Origin: a virus
IMG/VR virus record: IMGVR_UViG_3300044800_000044
Coordinates: 1-36,650 of that record
Direction: 5' to 3' (one strand)
Length of the DNA stretch: 36,650 bases
Shown here: positions 6,011 to 36,650 of the stretch, one piece after another
How positions within the stretch are numbered: the first letter of the stretch is position 1
Layout: the number at the start of each line of letters is the position of its first letter
The notes under the pieces: model-generated
What the model saw: only the letters and a program-made list of their open reading frames with translations
Told to the model about the DNA's origin: nothing
The model's database searches: none
Position numbers and translations under genes: made by a program

Positions 6011-6321
6011 CAGACAGCAACCGTGCCAAACGCAGGGGGCCGGGACGACCCTTCAAGAAGGGCGACGACCCGAATCGCCACCCATTTGGGCGGGCTACTC
6101 AGAAGCGCGCCATGTGGATGACCGCCGTCCTCAACCAATTGCCGCTGGAACTTTCCCCCAAAGAAGCGGCGCGACTTATCGCCAAATGGTATCGGCAGGG
6201 CAAAGTGCCCATTGTCATCGAAACGCACGACAGGCTAGGCGGCAAGGTCACTCAACCTGTCGATGGCAACATGAAGCTTGATGGAAAACTGATCGTGGAG
6301 TTCGTGGAGACAAAGGGATGA
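6007..6321 (+). CDS. Putative small terminase subunit (104 aa), GTG start
   Basis: The N-terminus has a basic RRGPGRPFKKGDDPNRHPFG segment like the glycine/arginine motif of DUF5681-type phage proteins found next to large terminases. The rest contains a helical segment (SPKEAARLIAKWYRQGK) and a short beta C-terminus. The gene ends in an ATGA overlap with the large terminase gene, the usual place for the subunit that recognises phage DNA. Start is the GTG at 6007, overlapping the previous stop. The family match is only from the N-terminal motif and position, so the role is probable rather than shown. Confidence 0.55.
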   Translation: MTDSNRAKRRGPGRPFKKGDDPNRHPFGRATQKRAMWMTAVLNQLPLELSPKEAARLIAKWYRQGKVPIVIETHDRLGGKVTQPVDGNMKLDGKLIVEFVETKG

Positions 6322-11126: not shown

Positions 11127-11534
11127 GTGCCCAACATGCTAAGAACCGCCACGCCGATGGACGATTGGCGGTCGTTCAAGTTCACGTGTATCACGTCGGG
11201 CGGGCTGCTCGGGGGGAGAGCCTCCTGGGCCGCCGGGGAGCCCTGGCTTTATCTCGTGGGGGATACAGTCGGGGCGCTCCTCGAATCCGCCGACGTGGGC
11301 GACGAGGGAGTCCTCGTCTATCACGCCGAGAAGATTCTCGTCGTGAAGGGGGTCGATTCCGGGGACGTCTTCGGAGTCGGGGACGTGGTCTACTGGGACC
11401 CCGCCACTCGCCTCGTCCATCCCGGCATCGACAGCGGCTATTACCGGATCGGCATCGCAACCGAGCCGGCGGCCGCGTCCGAAGCCCTGGTCGAGATCGA
11501 CCTCGACGGCGCAGGTGCGGCCGTCAGGCCTTAA
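11127..11534 (+). CDS. Capsid decoration/cement protein, DUF2190-like (135 aa)
   Basis: A beta-rich protein that probably binds the outer capsid surface and stabilises it. The C-terminal half has the DUF2190-type pattern: GDVFGVGDVVYWDPATR, then YYRIGIATEPA and ALVEIDLDG at the end. The N-terminal part (residues 1-60) has glycines and short strands. It starts at GTG 11127 behind a GGAG ribosome binding site in an otherwise empty 61-base gap. It sits directly ahead of the major capsid gene, the classic place for decoration proteins. The family assignment rests on pattern, not on a search. Confidence 0.7.
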   Translation: MPNMLRTATPMDDWRSFKFTCITSGGLLGGRASWAAGEPWLYLVGDTVGALLESADVGDEGVLVYHAEKILVVKGVDSGDVFGVGDVVYWDPATRLVHPGIDSGYYRIGIATEPAAASEALVEIDLDGAGAAVRP

Positions 11535-11544
11535 GGAGTAAGCC

Positions 11545-12711
11545 ATGAAAAGCAGAATCTTCAATCTCGACTGGGAAAAGTTCAACTACAAGGACAAGGA
11601 GCAGCGGCTCCAGCTCGCCGGCGCTCTCCAGATGTTCCTGGCCATGCCGAATCCGTTCATCCCGGACCGGCTCAAGAAGGTCCAGGAGTTCGTGAAGAAG
11701 CACAAGCAGGTCCACGAGTTCACCCTGATGAGCGATGGCTATCCCAATGTAAAGGCCATCGACGTCGTGGAGAGGTTCCACCAAGTCGGCGAGTACGACA
11801 CGAGTTTCGAGCAGATCTTCCAGGTCAACGATTACGCCGGCACGAAGGCCTCCGGGTTCGACGTCGCCGGCGTAACCAGCGGCCTGACCTTCAAGGAGAT
11901 CAAGCCCGGGGAAAAACTCAAGGTCTACGAGATGTCCGGCGACAAGTACCGCTGCTATTTCTGCTACTACGGCGGCGCGCTCGGCTGGCACCGCCAGCTC
12001 TTCGATGACGGAGACTGGTGGACCATCGAGGACAACGCGACCGAGTTCCGCGCGGCGGCCTACGGGGGCCGGGCGCGTATCTATTATGCGCTCCTCGAGG
12101 CGGCCGCCGACGCGGTCGGTTGCTGCAAGGTCGTTCAGTCGGACTGCTCCGATTGTTCGGCGGACGCCCGCTCGATTGCCGATTCCCTCAACTTCGCGGC
12201 CATGTCGATCCTCCTGAACACGGCCGGCCGCGGCTACAACCTCAACCCCCAGACGACCCAGTTCATCGTCCTCACCCCGATCCAGATGCGCGGCCGAGTG
12301 AAACAGGCCCTCGGCGTCCTCAACCAGGCATTCCCCGGCGCCGCCCCGGTCATCGACTACAACTTCCAGCAGATCACCTCGCTGATGCTGACCAACCCGA
12401 ACCGGGTCATGGTCATCCTCCCCAAGAAGACGCTCAAGATCGGCTACCGGATGGACCTCACGCTGTTCGACGACTTCGACATCCTGTCCTATACGGACAC
12501 GGTCGCCGGCTGGATGCGCCACGGCGGGTGCATCGGCGACCTCGACCAGATCGCGTGCGTCGAATTCGAACCGCAGAGCGGCTCCTGCCCGAACATGGCC
12601 GCGGCCCCGATCGGGGCATGCGCCAAGGTCACGGACGTTTGCGGCAAGGAAGTGGGATCCCTGGAGGATCTCAACGCCCCTTTCGCCCCAGCGGTCCACA
12701 AGGGGACCTGA
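11545..12711 (+). CDS. Major capsid protein (388 aa)
   Basis: This is the shell protein with the HK97 fold. The layout fits: N-terminal helical arm (about 1-60), a central domain with long helices (LLEAAADAVG near 190-200), and a strand-rich A domain with TQFIVLTPIQMRGRV and NRVMVILPKK, ending in a peripheral segment. An AAGGAG ribosome binding site lies at 11533-11538. It carries 11 cysteines, clustered as CYFC, GCC and CSDC in the middle and four near the end, which is unusual for a capsid protein. Position after protease, scaffold and decoration genes supports the call strongly. There is no visible N-terminal delta domain. Confidence 0.88.
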   Translation: MKSRIFNLDWEKFNYKDKEQRLQLAGALQMFLAMPNPFIPDRLKKVQEFVKKHKQVHEFTLMSDGYPNVKAIDVVERFHQVGEYDTSFEQIFQVNDYAGTKASGFDVAGVTSGLTFKEIKPGEKLKVYEMSGDKYRCYFCYYGGALGWHRQLFDDGDWWTIEDNATEFRAAAYGGRARIYYALLEAAADAVGCCKVVQSDCSDCSADARSIADSLNFAAMSILLNTAGRGYNLNPQTTQFIVLTPIQMRGRVKQALGVLNQAFPGAAPVIDYNFQQITSLMLTNPNRVMVILPKKTLKIGYRMDLTLFDDFDILSYTDTVAGWMRHGGCIGDLDQIACVEFEPQSGSCPNMAAAPIGACAKVTDVCGKEVGSLEDLNAPFAPAVHKGT

Positions 12712-12756: not shown

Positions 12757-13632
12757 ATGCAGGCGGGGGCGGAGCCGAAAATCCTCCGCCCTTGTCCTGC
12801 TCTTTTGGAGATGATGGACATGTTGCTGACGACGAATAGCCGGACGGTGAAGGAGATCCATGAAGACCGGGTGCGGCTGCTGGCCGAGAACCAAGAGGCG
12901 GCCCGGCGGGTTGTGGATCCTTATAATCCGGCCCATGCGGTGCTCGCCGACGGGGCCTGGCGGGGCGAGACCTGCTTCATCCTCGGCGGGGGGCCGTCGC
13001 TCATCGGATTTGACTTCGAGCGCCTTCGCGGGCGCGGGCGCGTCATCGCCATCAACCGGGCCTTCGAGTATGCGCCTTTCGCGGACATCCTGTTCTTCAT
13101 GGACCTTAAGTTCTACAAAATGTGCCATGAGGATCCGGCGCGGCTGGCGAAGTGGGAGGCGTTCAAGGGATACAAGATCTTCCTGAACCTGATGGGGAGG
13201 AAGGTCGAGGACTGCTACTCGGTTCGGTCGCTCGGGCGGCACGGCGTGTCCGGGTCGCTCAAGGCCGGAATCTACCACGGCAACAACTCCGGGACGGGGG
13301 CCCTGGGCCTTGCGCTCTGCATGGGCGCCAGGCCGATCTACCTGCTCGGATACGATATGCGGCACGAGGGCGGGCGCTCTCACTTCCACGACGGCTACGG
13401 CGCGCCACAGCCCGAGCGCGTTGCCCAGTCATTCGTCCGCGACTTCGAAAGGGCGTTCAAGCCCCTCAAGGGACGGGGCGGGATTATAAACCTGAATCCG
13501 AGAAGCGGACTCAGGATGTTTCCATTCTCAACGATCGACGAGGTATTGAATGGACCAGCAAAGGAAAATCTGGGGCACGACGAGCTCCCTCTTTCAGAGC
13601 CCGTTTTTCTCGCTGCATCTGCTCCGGATTGA
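12757..13632 (+). CDS. DUF115/MptE-like transferase, probable CMP-sugar-dependent glycosyltransferase (291 aa)
   Basis: Residues about 70-205 match the DUF115/MptE-like domain: FILGGGPSL at 74-82, RVIAINRAFE, ADILFFMD and a GARPIYLLGYDM segment at 190-201. DUF115 is the catalytic domain of Maf flagellin glycosyltransferases, which use CMP-activated nonulosonic acids, and a GxGPSL motif also occurs in GT42 sialyltransferases. With kdsA/kdsB in the same phage, CMP-Kdo is a plausible donor. No membrane segment is seen. Start is uncertain: ATG 12757 has a weak site, while ATGs at 12811-12820 follow GGAG. The last 28 codons overlap the cupin gene, which is unusual. Acceptor unknown; the capsid protein just upstream is one candidate. 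Confidence 0.65.
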   Translation: MQAGAEPKILRPCPALLEMMDMLLTTNSRTVKEIHEDRVRLLAENQEAARRVVDPYNPAHAVLADGAWRGETCFILGGGPSLIGFDFERLRGRGRVIAINRAFEYAPFADILFFMDLKFYKMCHEDPARLAKWEAFKGYKIFLNLMGRKVEDCYSVRSLGRHGVSGSLKAGIYHGNNSGTGALGLALCMGARPIYLLGYDMRHEGGRSHFHDGYGAPQPERVAQSFVRDFERAFKPLKGRGGIINLNPRSGLRMFPFSTIDEVLNGPAKENLGHDELPLSEPVFLAASAPD

Positions 13633-13939
13633 CGGCGGCGGCTACTGCTCCGAGCACCGGCACGACCGGAAGCGGAACCACTTCCACATCCTCTCCGGCC
13701 GGTTATTCATCCATCAGTGGCCAGTGGGGGCCGAGCAGGACCAGCCTGACACAACGCCGCTCGAGGCCGGGCAGTCGCTGACGATCGAGGTCGGTACTTG
13801 GCACTCATTCACGGCAGCCCTCCCGACCGTCTGCCTGGAACTCTACGAGGCGGCCCCGGTCGAGGAGGACATTGAACGGCGGACGACCGGCGGGATGCAT
13901 GGCCACGCCCCGGATCCCAATGAGGCGGGATTGCCATGA
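13550..13939 (+). CDS. Cupin, mannose-6-phosphate isomerase-like (129 aa)
   Basis: A single cupin barrel. The metal-binding first motif reads EHRHDRKRNHFHILSG (His36, His38, His44/46), and the second has GQSLTIEVGTWHSF with His85. The end VEEDIERR matches the EDDI-R end of type II phosphomannose isomerase cupins. It may isomerise or epimerise a sugar, or act as a dTDP/GDP-sugar accessory. The substrate cannot be read from the sequence. Its 5' end overlaps the DUF115 gene by 83 nt, and it ends in a 4-nt overlap with the glycosyltransferase gene, so it is in the sugar operon. Confidence 0.7.
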   Translation: MDQQRKIWGTTSSLFQSPFFSLHLLRIDGGGYCSEHRHDRKRNHFHILSGRLFIHQWPVGAEQDQPDTTPLEAGQSLTIEVGTWHSFTAALPTVCLELYEAAPVEEDIERRTTGGMHGHAPDPNEAGLP

Positions 13940-14601
13940 CGCCCTTCGTCGTCATCGCCTACTACACGGTCGGGACCGGATACAAGGCCGAGGCCGCGAA
14001 GCTCAAAGAATCGCTCAAGAAATTCGGGATAGACCACTATATCTGGGAGACGCCAAACCTCGGGTCTTGGCAGAAAAATACCCAGTACAAGGCGCGCTTC
14101 ATCAAGGGTCAGATGCACTTCCTCCCCAACGAGAGGAAGGATGAGCGGCCGGTTGTCTACGTTGACGCCGACGCTATGTTCCTGGCCTATCCCTCGCTCT
14201 TCGATACGATCGAGGCGGATTGCGCCTTCGCCTTTCTCGACCAGGCGAAATATTACCGGACCTCGCGACCGCAAAAGGAACTCGTGAGCTCGACGATCTA
14301 CCTCAAAAACAATGAGGCAACCAGGGCGCTCATCACCGCATGGATCGCGGAGAACGAACTCTACCCCGACGTTTGGGACCAGAAGAACCTCCAGCGGGTG
14401 CTCGACAGGCAAGCGGCGGGCCTCCGTATCGCTGGCCTCCCCGAGACCTACTTCAAGATATTCGACACGATGCGGGCCGTCCGCGATCCGGTCATCGAAC
14501 AATATCAGAAGTCGAGGATCTACAAGCGGCAGATCGATCGCTGGACTGGGCCATCGGAGAGGCAACCCTTCAGAGTGATAACGACCCATGACATACATTG
14601 A
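13936..14601 (+). CDS. GT-A type glycosyltransferase with DAD motif (221 aa)
   Basis: The protein has a nucleotide-diphospho-sugar transferase core: an N-terminal strand MTPFVVIAYYTVG, then RPVVYVDADAMF with a metal-binding DxD at Asp77-Asp79, followed by acceptor-side helices. No membrane segment is present, so it probably acts in the cytoplasm or at a soluble acceptor. It is one of four glycosyltransferases in the cassette and overlaps its neighbours by 4 and 14 nt. Donor and acceptor are unknown; the fold resembles PF03407-type transferases, but I cannot confirm that. Confidence 0.7.
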   Translation: MTPFVVIAYYTVGTGYKAEAAKLKESLKKFGIDHYIWETPNLGSWQKNTQYKARFIKGQMHFLPNERKDERPVVYVDADAMFLAYPSLFDTIEADCAFAFLDQAKYYRTSRPQKELVSSTIYLKNNEATRALITAWIAENELYPDVWDQKNLQRVLDRQAAGLRIAGLPETYFKIFDTMRAVRDPVIEQYQKSRIYKRQIDRWTGPSERQPFRVITTHDIH

Positions 14602-15247
14602 CCTGATCGTCGCGACGCGGAACCGGGCCGAGAAACTTGGGCGAATGCTCGATTCTGTCCCGGCCATAGCCGGCGGGAAGCCGATCAACATCAAGATCAT
14701 CTTCGACGGCGACTTCAAGACGGGCGAGATCTATGAGCATGACCCGAGAATCGCCCAGATCTTCTTCACCCCGAGCAGGGTCGGGTCCGTCGCGGCCCGC
14801 AACGTCGTGACGCCGATGTCCGAGGACGCGGTCCTTATGGCGGTCGATGACATCGAGTTCGCCCCGGGTTCGATCGATGCGGCCGTGGCGGCGTTTGAGG
14901 AGCGGTTCCAGGACGGCGACGGGGTTGTCGGGTTCAACCAGGCCAACCTGCCGAACTTCTCCTGGGCGGGGGTCGTCCTGATGGGCCAGAAGTTCCTCCG
15001 CCGCTATTCTGGAAAGAAGATCTACTACCCGGCCTACCATCACTTCGCTTGCCAGGAGATTGAATGGCTCGCCGAGTCACTCGGCAAGATGCACCGGGAG
15101 CCGGCGGCGAAACTCTCGCACTTCCATCCGGGCATGAAGGCGGGAAAGATGGACGAGACACATCGGGAGGCCAGAACCTTCCGCACCCAGGACCTACTGC
15201 TGAGCCGGGAACGCACGAGGCACAATCAGATATGGGGGACGGCATGA
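14588..15247 (+). CDS. Glycosyltransferase family 2-like (219 aa)
   Basis: A GT-A enzyme: MTYIDLIVATRNRAEKLGRML at the start is the GT2 nucleotide-binding pattern, with an AVDDIEFAPG segment (Asp87-Asp88) as metal-binding acidic pair and an acceptor region with HFACQEIEWL. No membrane helices are seen. It overlaps its upstream neighbour by 14 nt and the deacetylase by 4 nt. It probably adds a sugar to a growing glycan made by this cassette. The sugar is unknown. Confidence 0.75.
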   Translation: MTYIDLIVATRNRAEKLGRMLDSVPAIAGGKPINIKIIFDGDFKTGEIYEHDPRIAQIFFTPSRVGSVAARNVVTPMSEDAVLMAVDDIEFAPGSIDAAVAAFEERFQDGDGVVGFNQANLPNFSWAGVVLMGQKFLRRYSGKKIYYPAYHHFACQEIEWLAESLGKMHREPAAKLSHFHPGMKAGKMDETHREARTFRTQDLLLSRERTRHNQIWGTA

Positions 15248-15843
15248 TGTTCCCGGCGGTATTCCTGAGCTTCGACGACCTCTGGGTTGATGAATGGTAC
15301 GCGACCTTCGCCGAGAGCCGGATCAAGGTGACGTTCTATCCGGCGACCATCGGGAATCTGGCCGAGGATGGCTGGAAGAAGTTGAAGGCGCTCGAGGATG
15401 CCGGTCACACGATTGGGTTCCACGGCCTCAACCATCTCCGGGCCGGGGTCGAGGTTACGGCGCGAGGCCCCGAACGCTTCTTGGCCGACGAGATCATGCC
15501 CGGACTCCGGCTCTTCGAGGAGCACGGAATGAGATGGCCACTCCACTATTCGTATCCGTATGGGAACCGGACAGCCCAGAGCGACGACGTGCTCCTCGAC
15601 ATCTTCCGGACCCTACGAGGGGTCGGGGGCGACAGGACCTATTCCCCGGTCCATCTCAAGAGGATGAGGATCTTCCTGGCGAACAGCATGAAAAATGATC
15701 ATCGTGCATTGCTGGAGAGGACGATCCTCGAGAAGGGTGCCGCTTTCGTCTACCTGCATCAGCCGGCCCCCGACCGGCTCCGGGTGATCTGGAAATACGC
15801 CGACCGGGTCCATTTCTACCCGATGGGGGTACTCGATGCCTGA
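15244..15843 (+). CDS. Polysaccharide deacetylase, NodB-type (199 aa)
   Basis: A metal-dependent deacetylase that removes N- or O-acetyl groups from sugars. The NodB homology domain motifs are present: FLSFDD at residues 7-12 (catalytic/metal Asp11, Asp12), HTIGFHGLNH at 55-64 with metal-binding His60 and His64, and SYPYGNRT at 103-110. The C-terminal leucine-histidine segment (VYLHQPAPD) fits motif 5. I chose ATG 15244, in ATGA overlap with the preceding stop; ATG 15232 and 15247 are alternatives. No signal peptide is visible, so it would act on cytoplasmic intermediates. Confidence 0.8.
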   Translation: MMFPAVFLSFDDLWVDEWYATFAESRIKVTFYPATIGNLAEDGWKKLKALEDAGHTIGFHGLNHLRAGVEVTARGPERFLADEIMPGLRLFEEHGMRWPLHYSYPYGNRTAQSDDVLLDIFRTLRGVGGDRTYSPVHLKRMRIFLANSMKNDHRALLERTILEKGAAFVYLHQPAPDRLRVIWKYADRVHFYPMGVLDA

Positions 15844-16624
15844 GATGATCCTCGGACGGAGCGTGACCTTCATCGTCGAGACCCACCTCGGCTATGACCG
15901 ACCAGACCAGTTCGTCACCCCGGAATGGATCGACTTCCGGCTCGACTGGTTCCATCGGTTCACGCTCAAGAGTCTACAGAATCAGACGTTCAAGCCGGCG
16001 GCGATCTTCGTCCAATGCGGCGAGCGGCACCGGCCTCGGCTCGAGGCCTATCACTGGAGCCCCGAGGTCACCATCTGCTGGTTCAATGGCCAGGAGGAAT
16101 ACGCGAAGATCGATACCGATTACCTCGTCACGACCCGGATCGACAGCGACGACCTCTTCCACCGGGATTGTCTGGCCGAGGTTCGGTCGCGGGTCCGGTT
16201 CTCGAACAAGCGCGAGGTCCTTGCCTGGAAGACGAGGATCGTCTGGGACTACATCAACCGTTATGTCACGAACGATCATTCACGGCCCTCGGTCCCGTTC
16301 TTCACGCACGTCTTCCCGCGGGCGATCTACAAGAGCTGGCCGCTGATGTTGAGTCAGCACTTCATCCCGCAGGGGATCGGCGGGGCGGGCGACCATACGG
16401 CGATGCCGCTCAGCCGGAACCGCGTCTGTGTCGTGAAGCATGGTTGGAACCATAGCGTCCTCAAGTTCGGCAAGACCTGGCCGGTTCTCAAGACGAAGGC
16501 CGACGTTGAGGCGCATGAACTGATGCTTAAGCAAAGGAATCCGGAGGTCAAACTGTATTTCGGGAAGGAGATAATCGCGAAGACGCTCGAGCCGTTCGGT
16601 GTCACCCTGGAGATGATCCCATGA
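15836..16624 (+). CDS. Putative rhamnosyltransferase-like glycosyltransferase (262 aa)
   Basis: The sequence matches the putative rhamnosyltransferase family (PF11316) pattern: TPEWIDFRLDWFHRFTLKSL, then LQNQTFKP, and VTTRIDSDD with Asp103, Asp105 and Asp106 as the acidic donor-site motif. The second half, with PFFTHVFPR and a basic HxHG segment, would hold the acceptor site. The specific sugar cannot be told. It overlaps the deacetylase by 8 nt and the next transferase gene by 4 nt. No membrane segment is present. Confidence 0.7.
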   Translation: MPEMILGRSVTFIVETHLGYDRPDQFVTPEWIDFRLDWFHRFTLKSLQNQTFKPAAIFVQCGERHRPRLEAYHWSPEVTICWFNGQEEYAKIDTDYLVTTRIDSDDLFHRDCLAEVRSRVRFSNKREVLAWKTRIVWDYINRYVTNDHSRPSVPFFTHVFPRAIYKSWPLMLSQHFIPQGIGGAGDHTAMPLSRNRVCVVKHGWNHSVLKFGKTWPVLKTKADVEAHELMLKQRNPEVKLYFGKEIIAKTLEPFGVTLEMIP

Positions 16625-17292
16625 TCGACGGCAAAAAGATCTCCGTGATCATTACTACCTACTGCCGCTACGGCACGCTTGACGCTATCATCGGGGGCTG
16701 GCTTGCGCAGCCGGCCGAAGAGGTATGGGTGCTCGACGGGGGCGGGAAGTTCAAGGCAAAGGCCGAGGGGGGCCGGCTCCTTGTTTTCAACCTTCCCCGG
16801 GACCTCGGTACGAAGATGGATTATGCCTTCGCCCTGCTCACGGATGGTGATCTCGTCTGCCTGGCTGACGACGACCTGCTGCCGTCGCCGGGGTTCCTGG
16901 AGGACCTATACGCCGCATGGAAGCAGAAGGGCGGGATCGTCGGTACCCTCGGGCATACGTTCCAGGGGCCGGTATATCGGGCGAACACGACTTTTTTCCG
17001 GGGTGACCTCGTGCCGGCTGCGACCCGCGTCGACTTCTGCGGCGTCGTCCTGCTTGCCGCCCGGGAGGTCTTCGGCTTTGACGTTCGCGGGTGCCCGAGA
17101 AATTGCGACGACCTCTGGCTGGCGATGAAGGCCCACCCGGAACTGCCGAAGCACGTGGTCGCGACGAAACGTTTCAAGAATACGATGGCGGCCATTGATG
17201 GGACGGCTATGTATCGGGACCCGAAATTACGCGGTCAGCGTCAGGACTTCTACCGGGAATATTATATCAAGAACTACGCAGGGAAAAGATGA
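16621..17292 (+). CDS. Glycosyltransferase family 2-like (223 aa)
   Basis: A GT2-type enzyme: KISVIITTYCRYGTL at the N-terminus, a nucleotide-binding strand, then VCLADDDLLPSPGF with Asp83-Asp85 as the metal-binding motif, and GCPRNCDDLWLAM near residue 160 like the catalytic ED region of GT2. No membrane anchor. It overlaps both neighbours by 4 nt. It is the fourth glycosyltransferase of the cassette; the donor is unknown. Confidence 0.75.
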   Translation: MIDGKKISVIITTYCRYGTLDAIIGGWLAQPAEEVWVLDGGGKFKAKAEGGRLLVFNLPRDLGTKMDYAFALLTDGDLVCLADDDLLPSPGFLEDLYAAWKQKGGIVGTLGHTFQGPVYRANTTFFRGDLVPAATRVDFCGVVLLAAREVFGFDVRGCPRNCDDLWLAMKAHPELPKHVVATKRFKNTMAAIDGTAMYRDPKLRGQRQDFYREYYIKNYAGKR

Positions 17293-17828
17293 ACGCTTCC
17301 GAATACCTGAAACACTGGCGGGGCAAGAAGATATGGACCCATAATATGTGGCCAAAGCACCAGGACCGGCTGAAGTGGTGCGCCGGTCAATGTGTCGGCG
17401 AGACGTTCCTTGATCTCGGCTGCGCTTTTGGCCATTCGACCAACATCATGCGCGGATTTCACTACGGCAATTGGACCGGTATCGACTTCTCGGAGGAGGC
17501 AGTGGCGGAGGCCCGGCACTTCTTCCCCGATATCCCATTTGTCTTTCTTAGGAACATCGAGGATGGCGCAGATCTGAAATTCGATACCGTCATCTGCTCC
17601 GAGGTGATTGAGCATGTCGAGAATGACGCCGCATTTGTGGCCGGCCTAGTCCGGATGACGCGAATGCGCCTTGTTCTCACGACTCCATGCCGGGATGCTC
17701 ACGATCCGGGCCACCTACGGATCTACGACGACGAGACCATAAGCCGACTCCTCAAGGGGCTTGAGGTGAATATCGACAAGGGCGAATTCTTCTTCCATAT
17801 CGTCCTTAATCCGCGGAGAGGGGAATGA
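17289..17828 (+). CDS. SAM-dependent methyltransferase (179 aa)
   Basis: A class I methyltransferase: TFLDLGCAFGHST at about 39-51 is motif I (a variant of the GxGxG loop), GIDFSEEAV at about 64-72 provides the acidic ribose-binding residue (Asp66), and VICSEVIEHVEN is the motif IV/post-II region with the IEH signature. The size is small but complete. It lies in the sugar cassette in ATGA overlap with the upstream glycosyltransferase, so O-methylation of a glycan end is the most likely role. A protein or small-molecule target cannot be excluded. Confidence 0.75.
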   Translation: MNASEYLKHWRGKKIWTHNMWPKHQDRLKWCAGQCVGETFLDLGCAFGHSTNIMRGFHYGNWTGIDFSEEAVAEARHFFPDIPFVFLRNIEDGADLKFDTVICSEVIEHVENDAAFVAGLVRMTRMRLVLTTPCRDAHDPGHLRIYDDETISRLLKGLEVNIDKGEFFFHIVLNPRRGE

Positions 17829-18190: not shown

Positions 18191-18988
18191 ATGAAAAAGA
18201 AACTCGTCCTCCTGGCCATCCTGGCCGTCGCGGTCATGATCGCCTGCCCGAACCCCTCGGCACTCAGGGCGGCCTTTACCTGGACGCCGAAAACGCCGAT
18301 GGTCGGCGAGACCGTACAGTTCCTCGATCAATCGACGGGGAATCCCGCCCATTGGACCTGGGCGATCAATACGGTCTCTGGGATCACGGAGAAGAATCCA
18401 AAGGGGACGTTCGCCGGACCAGGAATTTTTCCGGTCTCCCTGACGATCACCGGCGCAGACGGTTCACAGAAAACGTCTATGCAGACCATCACGGTCGTCG
18501 CGGCCCTGAAGGCCTCGTTCAGCTATTCGCCGGCCTTTATCGACGCCGATACGACGGTCGTTTTCACGGACACCTCGGTCGGGACCCCCACGGCCTGGCT
18601 CTGGACGTTCGGCGATGGCATTACCGCCGCGACCCAGGCCACGAGTCACAAGTTTGCGGCCGGGACGTTTGCCGTGACGCTCAAGGTCACGAACGCCAAT
18701 GGGACGAATACGTCTTCTCCCTTGTCCCTGACGGTTGCCCCTGCCCTTGTCCCGAATTTTACCTGGAGCCCGAATAGACCCGCAGTTGGACAAGTCTGCC
18801 AGTTCACGGACACTTCGACGGGAGGCGCGGTGAGGTGGCTCTGGGACTTCGGCGACGGGACGGCGACCTCGACCCTGCAGAATCCGACTCACGCGTTCGC
18901 TGCGGCCGGGAATTACAACGTCACCCTGACCGTCTGGAACGCACTCGGAGTTCAGGCCTCGATGTCGATGTCGAAGATGATGCCTTGA
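18191..18988 (+). CDS. PKD-repeat lipoprotein-like protein (265 aa)
   Basis: The N-terminus KKKLVLLAILAVAVMIAC is a signal peptide with a lipobox-like end at Cys19, so the mature protein may be lipid-anchored. Three PKD-type immunoglobulin-like domains of about 80 residues follow. Domains 2 and 3 carry the WxFGDG signature (WTFGDG, WDFGDG) and HxF; domain 1 has a degenerate WAINTVSG in its place. PKD domains mediate contacts at cell surfaces and on virions. A Sec or lipoprotein signal on a gene in the structural region is unusual, because virion proteins stay in the cytoplasm. Expression in the lysogen, altering the host surface, is possible. An AAGGAG site lies just upstream. Confidence 0.7.
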   Translation: MKKKLVLLAILAVAVMIACPNPSALRAAFTWTPKTPMVGETVQFLDQSTGNPAHWTWAINTVSGITEKNPKGTFAGPGIFPVSLTITGADGSQKTSMQTITVVAALKASFSYSPAFIDADTTVVFTDTSVGTPTAWLWTFGDGITAATQATSHKFAAGTFAVTLKVTNANGTNTSSPLSLTVAPALVPNFTWSPNRPAVGQVCQFTDTSTGGAVRWLWDFGDGTATSTLQNPTHAFAAAGNYNVTLTVWNALGVQASMSMSKMMP

Positions 18989-26003: not shown

Positions 26004-26371
26004 CCCTGATCGCCGGGGAATTCCCTGGCCTGTTCTCGTTCCGCGAGCTCCTGGCGATGGACGTCCGGGACATAGTTTTCTGGGCGTCGACGGCGAAGCT
26101 GAAGGGTGTTGCTCGCATGACGTCGGCCTACAACGCTACCCTTCTGCCGTTCCAGAGCGCAGCGACAATTAGAATGGTGATGGATGAGTTGAGCGTTGAG
26201 GCGATGGGAGAAGAGGCCGCTGAGAAGGCGGAAACAGCGGACCTCGAAAATGCAGATCTCATCGCACGTGCGAAAGAGCGGAAGCGAGAGGCAAAGTTGA
26301 GGCGAAAGGCTGGCGGGAAGAGACCGCCGGATAACCGGAGGGCGGGCAGGAAGATCAGGAGAATACCATGA
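25686..26371 (+). CDS. Tail assembly chaperone, -1 frameshift product (gpGT-like, 228 aa)
   Basis: Slippage by one base at 25970-25976 moves the ribosome into the -1 frame, which stays open to 26371. The added part is about 131 residues: an IAGEFPGLFSFRELLAMDVRDIV segment encoded from 25976 onwards, then a helical region and a basic end (KRPPDNRRAGRKIRRIP). In lambda the same arrangement gives the gpG/gpGT ratio needed for the tape measure to fold. The second frame has no convincing start of its own; the ATG at 26057 lies inside the conserved part. The product ends in an ATGA overlap with the tape measure gene. Confidence 0.8.
25970..26030 (+). promoter_or_regulatory. Programmed -1 frameshift signal (slippery site plus stem)
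   Basis: A AAA AAC lies in the zero frame (gaA AAA AAC) at 25970-25976, a canonical -1 slippery heptamer. Seven bases downstream, GGCCAGGG (25984-25991) pairs perfectly with CCCTGGCC (26023-26030), an 8-bp stem that can extend by one G-U pair. The 31-base loop contains further short complementary words, so a more complex fold is possible. The spacer fits known stimulators. Confidence 0.85.
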
Positions 26372-30021: not shown

Positions 30022-33000
30022 ATGACAATTCCATACCGTGAGTGGACGCATTTCATCCTTCGGACAATCAAGGGCTATGGGGATGGCTACGCTCTCTTGA
30101 CCGCCGCCGATTGGACGACGGAGCATGACGAATACGCTGAGATCGGGTTTCATAGCTATCATACCGGCTCTCCATATACGGCCGAGCGCGAGGATTGCCT
30201 GATCAAGCCCTCCGCCGATGACTTTGCTCTGCCCGACGGAATGGCCGACCCGATCGACTATCTTCTGGAGGCTGATATCTCCTTTATCGACAAGCACATT
30301 CATGTTCGTCCACCCTCGAGTCTGGCCGCCGTCCATTTCGGCCCGTTTGTGATCTCCGACCCGGATTCGTCGAAATGGGACCCGGCAACGGTATCGGGCC
30401 GTTATTACAACGGGGTCGCCGAGTGGGACACATATCCGCAGGATCTGGCCGCTGTATTCATAGACAAGGGATGGGTGTGGGGCGGAATCCAGAACTATGC
30501 TTCCTGGGCGACACTCGGCGCGAAATATCGGGCCGTTCTTTTTTCGCAGATCGATGAACCGGCCGGGTCTGGGGCCATTTCATGGAATTCCCGATCGTCG
30601 ATGTTTCGGAATGGGATGATCCTCTCAGCCGCCTATTGCGGCTCCAGTGCCAATCCTCCCCTCGAGGCCGCCGAGTCATCGGAATTCTGGCTGTTCAACG
30701 TGGCTCCCGTCCGGCTACAGGTGCGGTATTTCAACCCGGTTGTTAACTCACTCTCCCGCTATTGGATGGGCGCGGCCGGGGGAGTCCCGGTCGTCCTTAC
30801 GGGCCTCGGATTTCATAACGCCGACTCCGAGATATCCTCCGCTTCACGCTACGGCACGCCAAAGCCGGGCGAGGGGACCTGGGCAGATTACGTTGACTAT
30901 ATTTACTTCGAGGGCCTCCAGGGTCAGGGCCAATACGTGCTCAAGCAAGGAGCCCTTTACCAATTCACGGACGACTCCAACGTGCAGATCACGATTCCCT
31001 CTATGCCCGCGATGGCCGAGGGGACCTATAATATCCGGCTCAAGACCGCCGCGATCAACGACCTGGACGTGCCGGTGCTGGCTTGGGCCGGGGATTGGAA
31101 TTGCGCCGCCGACGGCCGGGTGTCGGCCGGGAAAAGGATCGTTTTTACTGTTGGCCCTCAGACGGCCAGGGGGGCGGGCCTGATGATCGCCGGGGAATAC
31201 GCGCCGATTGACATCCGGGTGCGAGGGATCGCGAACCTCGTCCAGAACGGCGGTTTTGCCACGGCAACCGACTGGAATAAATCGGCCGTAACGAATCCCG
31301 CCCTCGCCTCCGAAGCCGGCGGAATATCGGGGAATTGCGGTAAGGTTACGGCGCAAGCCGTGACGGGTGCCGGGCAATACATCTACGATAAGATCGGCGG
31401 ACTCGTGACCGGCTCGCCGTACCATTTCCAGGCCTGGTTCAAGAAGGGGACCGCCTCCGGCGGCTTTATCAAGTTGGGGACGACTCAGGGCGGCTCCGAG
31501 TATCATGGGTGGACTGGCCTGACGGATGCGGGATGGACCATGTATTCTCTCAATTTCGTCGCGACCGCAAGCGATCTCTACATCGCCCTCGGTGTGGAGG
31601 AGGCCGGGAAGAACGCCTATTTTGACGAGGTCAATTTCTACGCTGGATCGAAATTCTACGACGGCCGGATTCTGGCCCACTCAGCGATCTCCAGGTCGCT
31701 GGCCGAGAGTGGCCCTGCCGGGACCATCTCGGACATGGACATGGATCTCGCCAACGCCGACCGCCATTTCTCGGTCAAGCTCGCCACGGAACTGCTGAAG
31801 AACCAGACGATTGAAACCTTCTGCGCCTGGAAGGACGGGCCGGAGGGCGACAAATCGACCGTCTTCACCGGGATCATTGACGATTACTCGCTGGCCGGAG
31901 ACGTGTTCAAGATGACGATCCGGGACATTACGCAAAAGTATTTCTCGGCGAAGGTCCCGCGAGAGATAGCCACAAAGGAGGACTTCCCGAACATTCACAC
32001 GGACTCGGATGGCAAGCCGGTCCCCGAAATCATCGGCCTCTGCTCCTACAGCGCGGTCGCGGCGAACGGGGCGATCGCGGCCCTCTATGTCGACAAGACG
32101 CTTTTTAAGTATCTCTGCTCAGCCCGGGCCATAACGATTATCAACGTTTACGCCGACGGGGTCATTAAGGCCGCGGCCGAATACGACATCTCGTCGGACA
32201 TAAACGGATGGATGTATATCACCTTCACCGCGGATCAGGGCGACAAAAGAATTACCTTCGACGCGTCCGGGGCTGACTATGCCCCCTGGAATTCAGTCAA
32301 CGGATACATTCAGAACCCGGCTTACGTCAGGGCCTATCTTTTGAACACGATCATGGGGATCCCGATGGCCTTCATGGACATCGCGGCTTTCGACACGATG
32401 GCTGCTTATTATGTATCCATCGGTGAGGAGTTGAGCGGATACTTGGCCCTCCAGGACGAAAAGGAATGCGTCGAGGTGCTCCAGGAACTCAACGTGACCT
32501 ATGGCGATGTCGGGTTTATCGCCAAGGACGGCCGGTACACCTTGGGCCGGAAGGGGATCAGCGACTTCAGCGCGGGCGTCGTGAATCTTTTCGCCCAGAC
32601 CGATCTTCTGGCCGCCCCCGCGTGGCTCTATAACATGGTTGACGCGGTCAATTACATTAAGGGGCGTTTTAACTGGTATCCGGCGCCGGAGGTTTATTGT
32701 CAGTCGGAGAGAATCCGCTACGATGCCTCAGTTGCCGACTTCGGGTCGGAGATGGGGTCGGAGATGGAGCTCCCCTGGACGACGTCAGACAACTTGGTCA
32801 CACAGAGGCTGTCCGAGGAACTTCTTAAACTCGGTTATGGCGACCGGAAGGTCGCCTTCTCCGTGCCGCTCGACTTCATCGATGTCCTGGACCTGTTCAC
32901 GAATATCCGGCTCCAGGATCCCTACGGGGCTGACGCCGGCGGCCTGGGCGAGGTCGGGCATTACGTCTACGTCGAATCGATGGCGATAGACATTCAGAAC

Positions 33001-33201
33001 AACAAAATTGACATCACGGCGAAGGATTACCAGTGGATACTTAGGGCCTATTGCGTCCTCGCGGACCGGGCGGCGATCGCCGACAACTGGGCGACCGCCG
33101 ACGAGTCGGATCGGATGTTCATGTATCTATGCGATCGGGTCACTGGATATTTCGCCGACGGCCAGCCGGGCAAGATCCTGGCTGACAGGAATTCTTTCTA
33201 A
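30022..33201 (+). CDS. Tail hub/baseplate protein with inserted TIG and carbohydrate-binding domains (1059 aa)
   Basis: The large central tail-tip protein. Residues 1-230 form an N-terminal tail domain; about 249-376 resembles an IPT/TIG immunoglobulin-like domain (GGVPVVLTGLGFHN); about 400-535 resembles a CBM_4_9-type jelly-roll (VQNGGFATATDWNK, YHFQAWFKKG, YFDEVNFY). From about 545 onwards it is a hub domain (STVFTGIIDDYSL, then MTIRDITQKYFSAKVPREIA and PVPEIIGLCSYSA) running to the end. The two inserted domains probably face outward and bind host surface glycans. Start is the ATG at 30022. Confidence 0.7.
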   Translation: MTIPYREWTHFILRTIKGYGDGYALLTAADWTTEHDEYAEIGFHSYHTGSPYTAEREDCLIKPSADDFALPDGMADPIDYLLEADISFIDKHIHVRPPSSLAAVHFGPFVISDPDSSKWDPATVSGRYYNGVAEWDTYPQDLAAVFIDKGWVWGGIQNYASWATLGAKYRAVLFSQIDEPAGSGAISWNSRSSMFRNGMILSAAYCGSSANPPLEAAESSEFWLFNVAPVRLQVRYFNPVVNSLSRYWMGAAGGVPVVLTGLGFHNADSEISSASRYGTPKPGEGTWADYVDYIYFEGLQGQGQYVLKQGALYQFTDDSNVQITIPSMPAMAEGTYNIRLKTAAINDLDVPVLAWAGDWNCAADGRVSAGKRIVFTVGPQTARGAGLMIAGEYAPIDIRVRGIANLVQNGGFATATDWNKSAVTNPALASEAGGISGNCGKVTAQAVTGAGQYIYDKIGGLVTGSPYHFQAWFKKGTASGGFIKLGTTQGGSEYHGWTGLTDAGWTMYSLNFVATASDLYIALGVEEAGKNAYFDEVNFYAGSKFYDGRILAHSAISRSLAESGPAGTISDMDMDLANADRHFSVKLATELLKNQTIETFCAWKDGPEGDKSTVFTGIIDDYSLAGDVFKMTIRDITQKYFSAKVPREIATKEDFPNIHTDSDGKPVPEIIGLCSYSAVAANGAIAALYVDKTLFKYLCSARAITIINVYADGVIKAAAEYDISSDINGWMYITFTADQGDKRITFDASGADYAPWNSVNGYIQNPAYVRAYLLNTIMGIPMAFMDIAAFDTMAAYYVSIGEELSGYLALQDEKECVEVLQELNVTYGDVGFIAKDGRYTLGRKGISDFSAGVVNLFAQTDLLAAPAWLYNMVDAVNYIKGRFNWYPAPEVYCQSERIRYDASVADFGSEMGSEMELPWTTSDNLVTQRLSEELLKLGYGDRKVAFSVPLDFIDVLDLFTNIRLQDPYGADAGGLGEVGHYVYVESMAIDIQNNKIDITAKDYQWILRAYCVLADRAAIADNWATADESDRMFMYLCDRVTGYFADGQPGKILADRNSF

Positions 33202-33211
33202 GGAGGACACC

Positions 33212-33778
33212 ATGCCCGCAAGTGGGGCCGATTTCGTAAACGGTAGCAAACTCGGATATCAGGACGTCAACGAGATCAAGAACAATTACCGGCTGGCCAC
33301 GGAGCCGGCCTCGATCCAGCCGGGGATGCTGTTCTCTAATTCTGCCGATGAGAAACTGTACCACGCCCAGGCCGCAGCCCGGAAGAGGATCCTTCAGGAA
33401 ACGGACTCTGCGGAGTTCGTGGAGACCCGCCTTGGCTCCGTCCAGGTGGACCTCAACGCCGCCGGCGGGACGCCGCTCCTCACGACGCTTTACACCTGTC
33501 CGGCTGGGAAGTCGTGCATCGTTACGGCCGTGATCCTCCGGTCCTGCTCCGGCAACATGACCACGGCGAAGATGTCATTCGGATGGGACGCGAACGGAAC
33601 GGACGTCATCGTGGACGCTCTCCATACCGCCCTCACTGGGCCGACGCTCTATGAGAAGATCATCCCGATCGCCGGGGCCAAGATCGGAACCGCGGCCGGG
33701 ACATTCAAGGCGGCAGTGAACACGAAGCAGGGCGGGGCGATGACGGTCCAGGTCTCCGTCGTCGGGTATATTTATTAA
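33212..33778 (+). CDS. Tail-associated virion protein (188 aa)
   Basis: A beta-rich protein with no recognised family. The N-terminal third is polar and helical, with a PGMLFSNSADEKLYHAQAA segment; the rest holds TLYTCPAGKSCIVTAVILRSC and GAMTVQVSVVGYIY strands. An AAGGAGG ribosome binding site precedes the ATG at 33212; the upstream ATG at 33008 is in another gene. Position between hub and fibre genes suggests a tail tip or fibre-attachment protein. Confidence 0.6.
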   Translation: MPASGADFVNGSKLGYQDVNEIKNNYRLATEPASIQPGMLFSNSADEKLYHAQAAARKRILQETDSAEFVETRLGSVQVDLNAAGGTPLLTTLYTCPAGKSCIVTAVILRSCSGNMTTAKMSFGWDANGTDVIVDALHTALTGPTLYEKIIPIAGAKIGTAAGTFKAAVNTKQGGAMTVQVSVVGYIY

Positions 33779-33789
33779 GGGGGGCGGGG

Positions 33790-34902
33790 ATGAATGTCGC
33801 TGACCGGGTCATAAAACTCGAGCGTAAGATCCAGGAGATCCTTACCAAGTTAATGAATATCCGGGCCATCGCTACGACAGCGGGCCACCATACGACGCAC
33901 GAGGCGGGCGGCCTGGACGCGATCAAACTCGACGACCTGGCTTCCCCGGATGACAACACCGACCTCAACGTAGCGACGAACAAGCATGGCCTCACCCCGA
34001 AGCGGGACGGCGCGGTCGGTAGCGCGTTGCGGGGCGACGGGACCTGGGGGGCCGCGATCCCGGCGACCCATCAGACGTCCCATAACGCCGGTCAGCCTGA
34101 CGCTCTAAAACTTGATGACCTTGCGGCCCCCGACGCAAATCTGGACCTGAACGTCGGGACCCATCATGGCCTATGCCCGGCCCTGCCCGCCGACGGGACG
34201 CTATACCTCGACGGGATCGGCGGTTGGACAGCCCCGGCTGGAGGCGGAGGTGGCGGGTCGAAGATCGGCCTCTTCCAGATGAATGAATCCTTCGACGGCC
34301 TGGCTACCGCAGCGATTGCGGGCCAGGGAGCCTATACGGACATGAGTGCCTGGGCCTTCGATGGCGACGGCGGGGCGAACGAGACCGCCCTGGTCGACGT
34401 CCTCGGAGGAGCGGATAAAGCCCTCTTTATCTGGCAAGCGATCGAGGCTGTAACCAGAAATAAAAAGGCCTACGTTGACTTTACAAACGAGGAGGGCATT
34501 CCCGCCGGGAAATGGAAGTTTGACTGGTCCTGCTCCGACGTCGACAAGAGCGGGGACATGGGATTTCAACTCGTCGACGCGGCCAACGTCGTCTGTTTTC
34601 ATCTCTATTTTGCAGCCTCAACAGTGAAGATGACTGTTTATGACGGGAGCACCACCACCCTACTTTATCCGGTCACGGACGGTACGGTCTATCGCATGAT
34701 GATTATTTTCGAGGGCCTTGAAGTCGCCAACGGTTATGCCTGGATCTGGATCAACGGCGTCATGCAGGGCCGATTCAAGGGAAGAACCGGGACGGTCCCG
34801 ACAAGGATCCAATTCTTTGTCGGAAATGCGACCCACGCTGCCGCGTCGACGATGATGGTGAACAACCTCAAGGTCTGGAACTTCTGGCGGTCCGTAGTCT
34901 AG
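33790..34902 (+). CDS. Tail fibre-like protein (370 aa)
   Basis: The N-terminal 25 residues form a coiled coil, followed by two copies of a fibre motif: HTTHEAGGLDAIKLDDL near 34-50 and HQTSHNAGQPDALKLDDL near 94-111, each followed by DLNV and HGL. Residues 150-160 are a glycine linker, and the C-terminal 200 residues form a jelly-roll-like domain with FHLYFAAS and WIWINGVMQGRF, similar to concanavalin-type sugar-binding folds. It is the probable host receptor-binding fibre. It is followed one base later by kdsA. Confidence 0.7.
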   Translation: MNVADRVIKLERKIQEILTKLMNIRAIATTAGHHTTHEAGGLDAIKLDDLASPDDNTDLNVATNKHGLTPKRDGAVGSALRGDGTWGAAIPATHQTSHNAGQPDALKLDDLAAPDANLDLNVGTHHGLCPALPADGTLYLDGIGGWTAPAGGGGGGSKIGLFQMNESFDGLATAAIAGQGAYTDMSAWAFDGDGGANETALVDVLGGADKALFIWQAIEAVTRNKKAYVDFTNEEGIPAGKWKFDWSCSDVDKSGDMGFQLVDAANVVCFHLYFAASTVKMTVYDGSTTTLLYPVTDGTVYRMMIIFEGLEVANGYAWIWINGVMQGRFKGRTGTVPTRIQFFVGNATHAAASTMMVNNLKVWNFWRSVV

Positions 34903-34903
34903 A

Positions 34904-35677
34904 ATGAAGGACCTTATCCTGATCCTCGGCCCCTGCGTCATCGAGCCGGGGGATCACGCTGTGCGGATGGCCCAGAAGATCAGCAATGTCTGCGCCCGCC
35001 TCAAGATGGATTTTATCTTTAAGGCGTCGTTTGATAAAGCGAACCGGCTTTCACTGGATTCCTATCGCGGCCCTGGGATCGAGGAGGGCCTGGGGATTCT
35101 CCAGGATGTGAAGGAAGAAACCGGATGCCGGGTCCTTTCCGATATCCACGAGCCCTGGCAGGCAAAGACGGCGGCGATGGTTCTTGACATCATCCAGATC
35201 CCAGCCCTTCTCTCGCGACAGACGGACCTCATCGTAGCCGCGGCCCGGACGGGCAAACAACTGAACATCAAGAAGGGCCAGTTTATGGCGCCCGAGGATA
35301 TGGAGCGGATTGCCGATAAGGCGACATCAGTCGGAAACAAGAACATTTGGATCACGGAACGCGGGACAACTTTCGGCTACCATGACCTCGTCGTTGATAT
35401 GCGGTCGATACCGGCGATGAAGAGGTTCGGGTACCCGGTCATCATGGACGCGACGCACGCGGTCCAGCAGCCGGGTGCCGGCGGCGGGCGGTCCTCGGGC
35501 CAACCAGAGTTCATCGCGACAATCGCGCAGGCGGCTGTGGCCGCGGGTGCGGACGGTATCTTCCTAGAGGTCCACGATGACCCGGCCCATGCGCTGTCGG
35601 ACGGGCCGAATTCGCTCCCGCTCGACGAACTTGAATCCCTTCTCCTCCGCCTTCGAAGAATTCACGAGGCGGTATGA
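34904..35677 (+). CDS. kdsA: 3-deoxy-D-manno-octulosonate-8-phosphate synthase, metal-dependent type (257 aa)
   Basis: It condenses phosphoenolpyruvate with D-arabinose-5-phosphate to make Kdo-8-phosphate. Family blocks are intact: ILGPCVIE (Cys11), FKASFDKANR (Lys40, Lys45), LSRQTDLIVAAARTGK, INIKKGQFMAP-like LNIKKGQFMAP, DATH (His185), FLEVH (Glu222) and ALSDGPNS (Asp233). Cys11, His185, Glu222 and Asp233 sit at the same residue numbers as the metal ligands of Aquifex KdsA, so this is the metal-dependent class. The length (257) is near the usual 265-285. FGYHDLVVD has His where most have Asn. The gene starts one base after the fibre gene and ends in an ATGA overlap with kdsB. Confidence 0.93.
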   Translation: MKDLILILGPCVIEPGDHAVRMAQKISNVCARLKMDFIFKASFDKANRLSLDSYRGPGIEEGLGILQDVKEETGCRVLSDIHEPWQAKTAAMVLDIIQIPALLSRQTDLIVAAARTGKQLNIKKGQFMAPEDMERIADKATSVGNKNIWITERGTTFGYHDLVVDMRSIPAMKRFGYPVIMDATHAVQQPGAGGGRSSGQPEFIATIAQAAVAAGADGIFLEVHDDPAHALSDGPNSLPLDELESLLLRLRRIHEAV

Positions 35678-36390
35678 GGGCGATCGGCATCATCCCGGCG
35701 CGGATGGAGTCAACCCGGTTTCCCGGCAAACCCCTAGCACTCATCAACGGGATGCCGATGATCTGGCACGTCTGGTGGGCCGTAAGTGGGGCGAGACTGA
35801 TCCAACCCTATTACATCGCGACGGATAGTCCATTGATCTATGAGGCCTGCCGAGAACTTTCGATAGCCTGTATCATCACGAGTCGGGACTGTCGGTCGGG
35901 GACCGAGCGATGTCATGACGCGATGCGGCAACTGAAGGCGCTCGAGGACGACATCATCATCAATGTCCAGGCCGACGAGCCGATGATCCGATCCGAGTCG
36001 CTGGATGAATTAGTGCGGGCCTTCGCCAATCCGACCGTCAATATTGCGAGCCTATGCTTTGCGCCTTCCGATCCAGGTTTTGTCTCCGATCCGAACCGCG
36101 TCAAAATCCTCATTGACAACGCGGGAAATGCCGTGGAGTTCGTCCGGATCGCGAAGGTCGGCTGGCTCTGGAAACAGCATGTCGGTGTCTATGCCTATCG
36201 ACGACCAATCCTTGCAGAGATCGCTACGCTTCCACCGATTGGGGATCTTGAGCAGGCAATTTGGATGACGATGGGCCGGAAGATCCGCATGATCGAGATC
36301 CCCTATAAGACAATCGCCGTGGATGTGCCGGCGGATATCGAGGAAATCGAGAAGACGGCCTGTCCCAAAATCGGGCCCAGGATGCCCTAG
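35674..36390 (+). CDS. kdsB: CMP-Kdo synthetase-like protein (238 aa)
   Basis: It activates Kdo with CTP to CMP-Kdo. Motifs: IIPARMESTRFPGKPL at 6-21, IATDS, SGTERC, NVQADEP and a KQHVGVYAYR segment. Two deviations from typical KdsB: NVQADEP where most have NVQGDEP, and DLEQAIWMTMG in place of the usual ExLEQLR segment, which helps bind the sugar and form the dimer. The C-terminus has AVDVPADIEEIEK, like the usual VDTPEDLE. Activity is likely but the sugar could be a Kdo relative. It forms an operon with kdsA. Kdo-8-P phosphatase (kdsC) is absent and must come from the host. Confidence 0.88.
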   Translation: MRAIGIIPARMESTRFPGKPLALINGMPMIWHVWWAVSGARLIQPYYIATDSPLIYEACRELSIACIITSRDCRSGTERCHDAMRQLKALEDDIIINVQADEPMIRSESLDELVRAFANPTVNIASLCFAPSDPGFVSDPNRVKILIDNAGNAVEFVRIAKVGWLWKQHVGVYAYRRPILAEIATLPPIGDLEQAIWMTMGRKIRMIEIPYKTIAVDVPADIEEIEKTACPKIGPRMP

Positions 36391-36607
36391 GAAGGGCGAA
36401 CGCCTTTTAGCCACCCCCTGGGACGGGGATGGCCCAGAAAATCAAAGTTCAATCAATAAAACCCCCTGAATTCAGGCATTTCAAGGGCCATGTCCCAAGG
36501 GTGTCCCGGTTTCTGACTAACGTGAACGCTCGATTTGCGGCTAAATGCGGCACTTTGCTCCATATAATCAGGTCGGCGGTCTATCGGCCGCCTGGGAGCA
36601 TTCAGTT
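36391..36607. other. Non-coding right end of the prophage
   Basis: No convincing gene lies between kdsB and the att site. The ORF 36429-36614 has no ribosome binding site, does not resemble any protein, and ends inside the tRNA fragment. Features are the perfect palindrome CCTGAATTCAGG at 36465-36476, two GTCCC words in AAGGGCCATGTCCCAAGGGTGTCCC (36482-36506 region), and a GGCGG...CCGCC hairpin at 36575-36592. These may be arm or excisionase sites of the integrase. Confidence 0.45.
36392..36408 (+). terminator. Weak rho-independent terminator after kdsB
   Basis: AAGGGC (36392-36397) and GCCTTT (36402-36407) pair around a GAAC loop, with one G-U pair, followed by a short T run to 36408. It lies two bases after the kdsB stop. 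The stem and U tail are short, so it may be a weak or partial terminator. A second CCACCCC/GGGGATGG inverted repeat follows at 36411-36432. Confidence 0.45.
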
Positions 36608-36650
36608 TTCGTAATCAGTAGGTCGGAGGTTCAATTCCTCTCGCTGGCTC
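36608..36650 (+). other. Attachment site: 3' half of tRNA-Thr(CGT)
   Basis: The last 43 bases match the 3' half of a tRNA-Thr gene from the anticodon loop TTCGTAA (anticodon CGT) through the T arm (GGAGG TTCAATT CCTC) to the acceptor end CGCTGGCT. Upstream of the anticodon loop the sequence no longer fits a tRNA: the expected partner ACTGA of the TCAGT stem is absent, replaced by CAGTT. This is the usual signature of an integration site in which the phage restores the 3' half of the host tRNA. The left partner is outside the window. Confidence 0.75.

Follow-up and report, generated by a model that had tools for sequence, protein, structure and literature searches.

A phage kdsA-kdsB pair beside a tRNA-Thr half-site and its possible link to a glycosylation cassette behind the capsid genes

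Introduction

Genes of the Kdo route are already known in phages. kdsA and kdsB have been reported from viromes as viral auxiliary metabolic genes (PMC10653327; PMC9529941; PMC5332604; PMC11018836), and one virus in PMC5332604 has KdsA together with NeuA and other sugar genes. The phage described here resembles those in the virome reports in carrying Kdo-route genes. It differs from them in context: in the accessible parts of these reports, the genes appear as single annotations with a role at the host surface, and no cupin partner, capsid-linked transferase cassette or att context is described. Phage Kdo genes are as a rule classed with the LPS auxiliary metabolic genes, and the role guessed for them is a block to superinfection.

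Synechococcus phage S-SCSM2R (PQ898602) also has kdsA and kdsB side by side, near a glycosyltransferase gene. However, the two genes are convergent, the phage is 244 kb long, its KdsA is 38% identical to ours, and neither the transferase that we call GT42w nor the cupin described below is nearby. GT42w shares its profile and fold with Maf flagellin glycosyltransferases and with CstII and CstI (GT42), all of which use CMP-sugar donors. For one Maf, CMP-Kdo serves as donor and a protein as acceptor: in E. coli, this enzyme moves Kdo onto Ser/Thr residues of the protein (PMC11339370). GT42w is much shorter than Maf, scores below the Pfam cut-offs, and lies beside capsid genes rather than flagellin or LOS genes. 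Glycosylated virions have been described in mycobacteriophages, in which capsid and tail-tube proteins carry glycans (Freeman et al. 2023, as cited in PMC12619734 and PMC10955285), although no CMP-ulosonate supply is described in these citing papers, and the host envelope is of a different kind. The open-licence PMC literature yielded no description of kdsA or kdsB with this cupin and CMP-sugar-transferase-like genes behind capsid genes. If phage Kdo genes feed capsid-linked CMP-sugar transferases, a widespread class of genes (at least 556 kdsA matches in IMG/VR) would gain a directly testable function, and the cupin would become a candidate new enzyme of the Kdo pathway.

The phage record and its att site

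The window analysed here is an entire IMG/VR virus record, linear and 36650 bases long, and not a slice of a bacterial genome. Its recognised genes read rightward, small early genes first and kdsA-kdsB last. An HTH regulator and an endolysin-like gene are among the genes at the left end. Head genes lie between the two landmarks below, and tail genes follow the second:

6318-7532, rightward: TerL
26368-29211, rightward: tape measure

The endolysin-like gene (3237-3644) is not with the tail genes but on the left side of the terminase. Identity between TerL and its counterparts in the phages L090-L094 is 73-84%, yet the other genes of these phages barely match the window; hence, the packaging module and the head/cassette modules have apparently been exchanged.

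The right end of the record is arranged as follows:

33790..34902, + strand: tail-fibre-like gene, 370 aa (repeat domain common to 116 viral matches)
34904..35677, + strand: kdsA, predicted Kdo-8-phosphate synthase, 257 aa (TIGR01362, NF003543, metal ligands, KANR, PDB relatives)
35674..36390, + strand: kdsB, predicted CMP-Kdo synthetase, 238 aa, divergent (PF02348, NF003952, PDB relatives)
36610..36650, + strand: att core, the 3ʹ half of tRNA-Thr(CGT) from the anticodon to the record end (match in L323)

The 41 bases at 36610-36650 differ at two positions from the complete tRNA-Thr(CGT) that ARAGORN calls in L323, and their sequence is single copy within the window. No complete tRNA was called in the window, and Rfam gave no tRNA in the partial end. 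Among 395 genomes of one phylum there was no exact copy of the half, and a single match at two mismatches. When a phage integrates at the 3ʹ end of a tRNA gene, the partial copy marks the end of the element, with phage DNA on its 5ʹ side. Because the tRNA-Thr half lies to the right of kdsB, the kdsA-kdsB pair is on the phage side. The initial annotation had placed the pair next to an att site, which can now be specified as this half-site, and had recognised that an att to the left of 34904 would make the two genes flanking host DNA. With the half to the right of kdsB, flanking host DNA is ruled out. The same annotation called the element a prophage. The tRNA half at the right end agrees with this; no integrase was found among the genes scanned, and no intact tRNA or attL in the record, which is truncated on the left within a gene cluster. 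As the integrase and the other att are absent from the record, we infer the prophage state rather than observe it. The record probably covers the greater part of a tailed phage whose integration site is a tRNA-Thr gene.

Identity and expression of the kdsA-kdsB pair

The gene upstream of the pair ends in TAG, leaving a one-base gap before the kdsA ATG at 34904, and the kdsA stop codon, TGA at 35675-35677, overlaps the kdsB ATG at 35674 (ATGA). Both genes are intact, and both junctions are exactly as first annotated. The upstream gene had been named a tail fibre; we call it tail-fibre-like, since it has the repeat domain listed above but matches no Pfam or PHROG profile. None of 80 loci that share the repeat has kdsA or kdsB (0/80).

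KdsA scores 377.1 bits against TIGR01362 (cut-off 314) and 383.5 bits against NF003543 (cut-off 242). The metal ligands Cys11, His185, Glu222 and Asp233, correctly listed as kept in the initial annotation, do not vary across 11 KdsAs of viral and bacterial origin, and nor does the KANR motif (K45-R48). The best solved relatives are Kdo8P synthases only (E 1e-83 to 1e-55). DAHP synthases lie far behind (E about 1e-22), and we rejected that identity since family scores and ligands fit a Kdo8P synthase. We regard the identity of KdsA as a metal-dependent Kdo8P synthase as settled, and its catalytic activity as likely. KdsB scores 118.5 bits against PF02348 (cut-off 22.6) and 202.6 against NF003952 (cut-off 193), and falls below the cut-off of the stricter TIGR00466 (129.5; cut-off 155.2). 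All of its solved relatives are CMP-Kdo synthetases. The motifs PAR, PGKP, DEP, HVGVYAYR, LEQ and VD line up with those of solved KdsBs, and the stretch before HVGVYAYR is shorter than in these relatives. We likewise take KdsB to be a CMP-Kdo synthetase, divergent by its scores, and its activity to be likely. The family scores, and the att half to the right of the pair, uphold the original view of Kdo-route enzymes as phage cargo. Neither KdsC nor KdsD was found within the window, and no aminotransferase or dehydrogenase was recognised among the window genes scanned.

A simple scan with a consensus for sigma-70 only found no promoter-like site on the + strand in 33000-36650, and a scan found no terminator-like site after kdsB. 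A terminator there looked plausible by eye; neither folding (z -0.4) nor the scan supports it. Since the late operon runs on into the pair, which has no promoter-like site of its own, late expression is likelier than expression from a silent prophage. For the same reasons, the suggestion that the pair is a typical lysogenic-conversion moron is weak, and is only partly supported.

A glycosylation cassette behind the capsid genes

The initial annotation did not mention a glycosyltransferase cassette 17-22 kb upstream of the pair, which gives the pair a likely use. This cassette (12757-17828) is directly behind a cement protein gene and a probable major capsid gene:

11127..11534, + strand: cement (head decoration) protein, 135 aa (PF09956, 36.1 bits, cut-off 24)
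11545..12711, + strand: probable major capsid protein, 388 aa (position after the cement protein; fold matches)
12757..13632, + strand: GT42/Maf-like CMP-sugar transferase, GT42w, 291 aa (phrog_4603, 1.3e-30)
13550..13939, + strand: small cupin, 129 aa (PF07883, 30.2, cut-off 27.2; recurs near phage kdsA and GT42w)
13936..14601, + strand: nucleotide-diphospho-sugar transferase (PF03407, 34.7, cut-off 22)
14588..15247, + strand: GT2-like glycosyltransferase (PF00535, 20.7, below the cut-off of 23.3)
15064..15843, + strand: polysaccharide deacetylase (PF01522, 44.7, cut-off 23.1; true start probably later than 15064)
15836..16624, + strand: rhamnosyltransferase-like (PF11316, 20.9, below the cut-off of 23)
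16621..17292, + strand: GT2 glycosyltransferase (PF00535, 33.2, cut-off 23.3)
17289..17828, + strand: methyltransferase (PF08241, 43.1, cut-off 21.2)

The best fold matches of the product of 11545-12711 are phage capsids, with E 0.002-0.012 at best from a poor model (pLDDT 44.6). Seven other phages (L162-L166, L176 and L177) have a homologue of this gene just upstream of a GT42w/cupin cassette. GT42w scores 24 bits against PF01973, below the cut-off of 34.6, and PF06002 (CST-I) is not reported for it. The profile of its family reaches CstII at 1.3e-8 and CstI at 1e-6. In a Foldseek search, its model (pLDDT 76.6) matches Maf (6e-5) and CstII (6.5e-4) with TM-scores of 0.41-0.45. These are its only fold matches with E below 0.001; human sialyltransferases come next. 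The superfamily is thus that of Maf and CstII, and because GT42w is below the curated Pfam cut-off we describe it as GT42/Maf-like and not as a member.

The phage L322 is 94% identical in nucleotide sequence over the tail genes, and its counterpart of 16621-17292 encodes a 95% identical protein. Its contig stops before the position of kdsAB, so a single record covers this end. For the cupin, a search at 1e-10, run with no positive control, found no homologues in 42 genomes of the bacterial class of one KdsA neighbour. Directly behind the cassette, the gene at 18191-18988 encodes three PKD domains; its product may be an acceptor, or a decoration exposed at the surface.

kdsA, the cupin and CMP-sugar transferases in other phages

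Phage kdsA is common: scanning IMG/VR with cupin and KdsA alignments confirmed at least 572 cupin and at least 556 KdsA relatives. Among 88 viral KdsA loci, GT42w was found at 37, the cupin at 20, KdsB at 11, KdsD at 2 and KdsC at none, with the reservation that most of the GT42w-KdsA loci come from one group of related T4-like phages, so that their number overstates independence. The corresponding counts for 80 bacterial KdsA loci were 0, 0, 23, 26 and 27, and all five genes were absent from 68 viral TerL loci. As the loci are not independent, we place weight on the layouts and on the number of branches, and not on a p-value. When KdsAs were collapsed at 80% identity, the cupin was near kdsA in 12 of the 34 viral representatives, GT42w in 6/34 and a GT29-like gene in 5/34. 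The cupin-bearing representatives are spread over several branches of the KdsA tree. Phage KdsA is thus linked repeatedly to the cupin and to CMP-sugar-transferase-like genes. Many viral kdsA loci have no nearby kdsB.

The layouts differ between groups of phages. Marine phages have the order cupin-KdsB-KdsA-GT-GT29-like; for the GT29-like protein, phmmer against the PDB gave nothing significant, and PF00777 was below its cut-off. Just before cupin-KdsB-KdsA, marine phages have a JmjC_2-type (PF08007) gene (L005:2082-3056; also in L003, L004 and L007), which could encode a Kdo-modifying dioxygenase. Freshwater T4-like phages (L244-L317) share a conserved gene order: tail fibre, a homologue of GT42w, QueD/PTPS (PF01242), KdsA. 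The row at L242:7058-10001 consists of a GT42-like gene, a 97-aa gene, KdsA, a KdsD-like SIS isomerase (A5P isomerase) and a second GT42-like gene. In a 35.8 kb phage (L089:4992-12573), the cupin and KdsA run into TerL; KdsB in this phage is alone on the opposite strand, between scaffold-like and capsid-like genes. The 462 kb phage record LR756500.1 (L160:7740-8966) has KdsA and KdsB in a glycosyltransferase cluster. A 408-aa product of that cluster, with a SIS domain at its C-terminus, is perhaps an A5P isomerase of the phage. L159 (CAKLQH020000043.1), among records named Acinetobacter phage MD-2021a, has pyrG-kdsA-eno with other ordinary metabolic genes, which gives it the look of bacterial chromosome filed as a phage.

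Phages of about 40 kb that have the cassette (L163, L164, L166 and L176) yielded no kdsA, kdsB or PF02348 gene, in a search whose kdsB part had no positive control. Another CMP-sugar synthetase was considered for the cassette relatives, and none was found. It follows that the cassette needs no phage supply of CMP-Kdo. These phages may use host CMP-Kdo, to which the window phage would add a supply of its own; an unrelated role for the pair is equally permitted.

What is the function of the kdsA-kdsB pair?

A phage that has its own CMP-Kdo enzymes, and sugar-attaching genes beside its capsid genes, suggests decoration of its own particles and not only alteration of its host. We tentatively propose, as a reading with a little less than an even chance of being correct, that the phage makes CMP-Kdo late in infection and that its GT42/Maf-like transferase attaches Kdo, or a closely related ulosonate, to the virion. 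kdsA and kdsB would be the last genes read in the late operon. KdsA would catalyse the committed condensation of arabinose-5-phosphate and PEP to Kdo-8-phosphate, and KdsB the CMP activation of Kdo, with the host supplying arabinose-5-phosphate and the KdsC phosphatase. CMP-Kdo would then feed GT42w (12757-13632), the first gene product of the cassette, for which Kdo is the presumed donor. The acceptor may be the virion, most likely a capsid or decoration protein, and Kdo would form part of a glycan finished by the remaining cassette enzymes (transferases, deacetylase and methyltransferase). The cupin perhaps isomerises or epimerises a sugar.

Virion glycosylation accounts for most of what we observe, because the cassette is beside the capsid genes and the pair is late, with no promoter-like site of its own. 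As cited in PMC12619734, glycosylation of mycobacteriophage capsid and tail-tube proteins (Freeman et al. 2023) provides a precedent. Of the uses first suggested for the pair, a CMP-Kdo pool for the phage itself is the best supported; its role in the virion is one that we infer. Against this reading, the cassette phages of about 40 kb have no such pair, many viral kdsA loci have no kdsB close by, and no KdsC or KdsD was found in the window. In addition, the pair and the cassette are 17-22 kb apart in the window, the fold model of the capsid-like protein (11545-12711) is poor, and GT42w is below the Pfam cut-off. A broader version is that several unrelated phage lineages independently assembled a Kdo/ulosonate module, consisting of KdsA, often the cupin, sometimes KdsB or a KdsD-like isomerase, and a CMP-sugar transferase of GT42- or GT29-like type, with which they glycosylate their virions. 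We consider this rather unlikely, though well worth keeping in view; if true, Kdo would be a sugar of phage structure, and the cupin would be an enzyme of its pathway that has gone unrecognised.

The main rival to virion glycosylation is a change of the host surface, in which boosted or redirected Kdo and the transferases alter LPS or capsule, in lysogens or during slow infection, and so block other phages. This too is on the unlikely side, and deserves serious consideration. Kdo is a sugar of the LPS core, cargo genes are commonly located next to att, and the tRNA-Thr half indicates a phage of the integrating type. To our knowledge, every LPS-bearing host already makes Kdo, and a second KdsA/KdsB pair alone would thus change its amount and not the structure. 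Surface conversion is also the usual proposal for phage LPS genes, at least in the accessible parts of PMC9529941 and PMC5332604. However, kdsA has no separate promoter-like site in front of it and the pair is at the end of the late operon, while the cassette is behind capsid genes in eight phages. A humbler possibility, which we regard as quite unlikely, is that the pair merely sustains LPS synthesis after host expression stops and is unconnected to the cassette. Viral loci that have kdsA with no kdsB or recognised transferase nearby, which are frequent, and cassette relatives that have no such pair, are consistent with this. In the loci that we read, however, phage KdsA repeatedly adjoins the cupin and CMP-sugar-transferase-like genes, and not lipid A or WaaA genes.

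It is also conceivable, although improbable, that KdsB activates a Kdo derivative or another ulosonate and that the cupin modifies the sugar, for an acceptor on the virion or on the host. The divergence of KdsB (its TIGR00466 score, its branch length of 1.75 and the shorter stretch before HVGVYAYR), the recurrence of the cupin as a partner, and the JmjC-type gene that adjoins the marine modules all point in this direction, whereas KdsA is conventional at all positions tested and the window genes scanned include no recognised aminotransferase or dehydrogenase. Least probable, and very much so, is that the pair is a passenger with no phage function, whether host DNA from an imprecise excision at the prophage edge or an assembly join. 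The pair is at the very end beside att, in the one record that covers this end; KdsA groups with bacterial copies, and the codon usage of kdsB is less phage-like. Imprecise excision takes DNA from beyond att, yet here the att half lies outside the pair. Furthermore, the one-base and ATGA junctions join the pair to the late operon, there is no near-identical bacterial copy, and the codon usage of kdsA is like that of the late genes.

Origin of KdsA and KdsB

The closest bacterial KdsA, from the MAG L009, is 64% identical to the window copy, and viral KdsAs are about 53% identical. In a tree of 80 KdsAs, the window copy nests among those of Myxococcota, Acidobacteriota and Planctomycetota (support 85-87, unstarred) and is outside a 23-row phage clade. 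An origin in the main phage clade is therefore not supported. Recent pickup from a host was rejected, since the most similar bacterial copies found, with one scan of genome contigs, are at most 64% (KdsA) and 40% (KdsB) identical. Trees of KdsA and KdsB against host genomes had been suggested with the initial annotation, on the grounds that a separate phage clade would support a phage function and near-identity with a host copy would imply recent pickup. The KdsA tree gave neither outcome, as the window KdsA is outside the phage clade and at most 64% identical to any copy. Viral KdsAs require up to 9 label changes in the tree, and at least 3 by starred branches alone, indicating repeated transfer of kdsA between bacteria and phages; the window kdsA looks like one of the separate gains. 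KdsB is on a long end branch (1.75), and its placement is too uncertain to use. For these short genes, the correlation of codon usage with the phage late genes is 0.83-0.85 for kdsA and 0.62-0.70 for kdsB.
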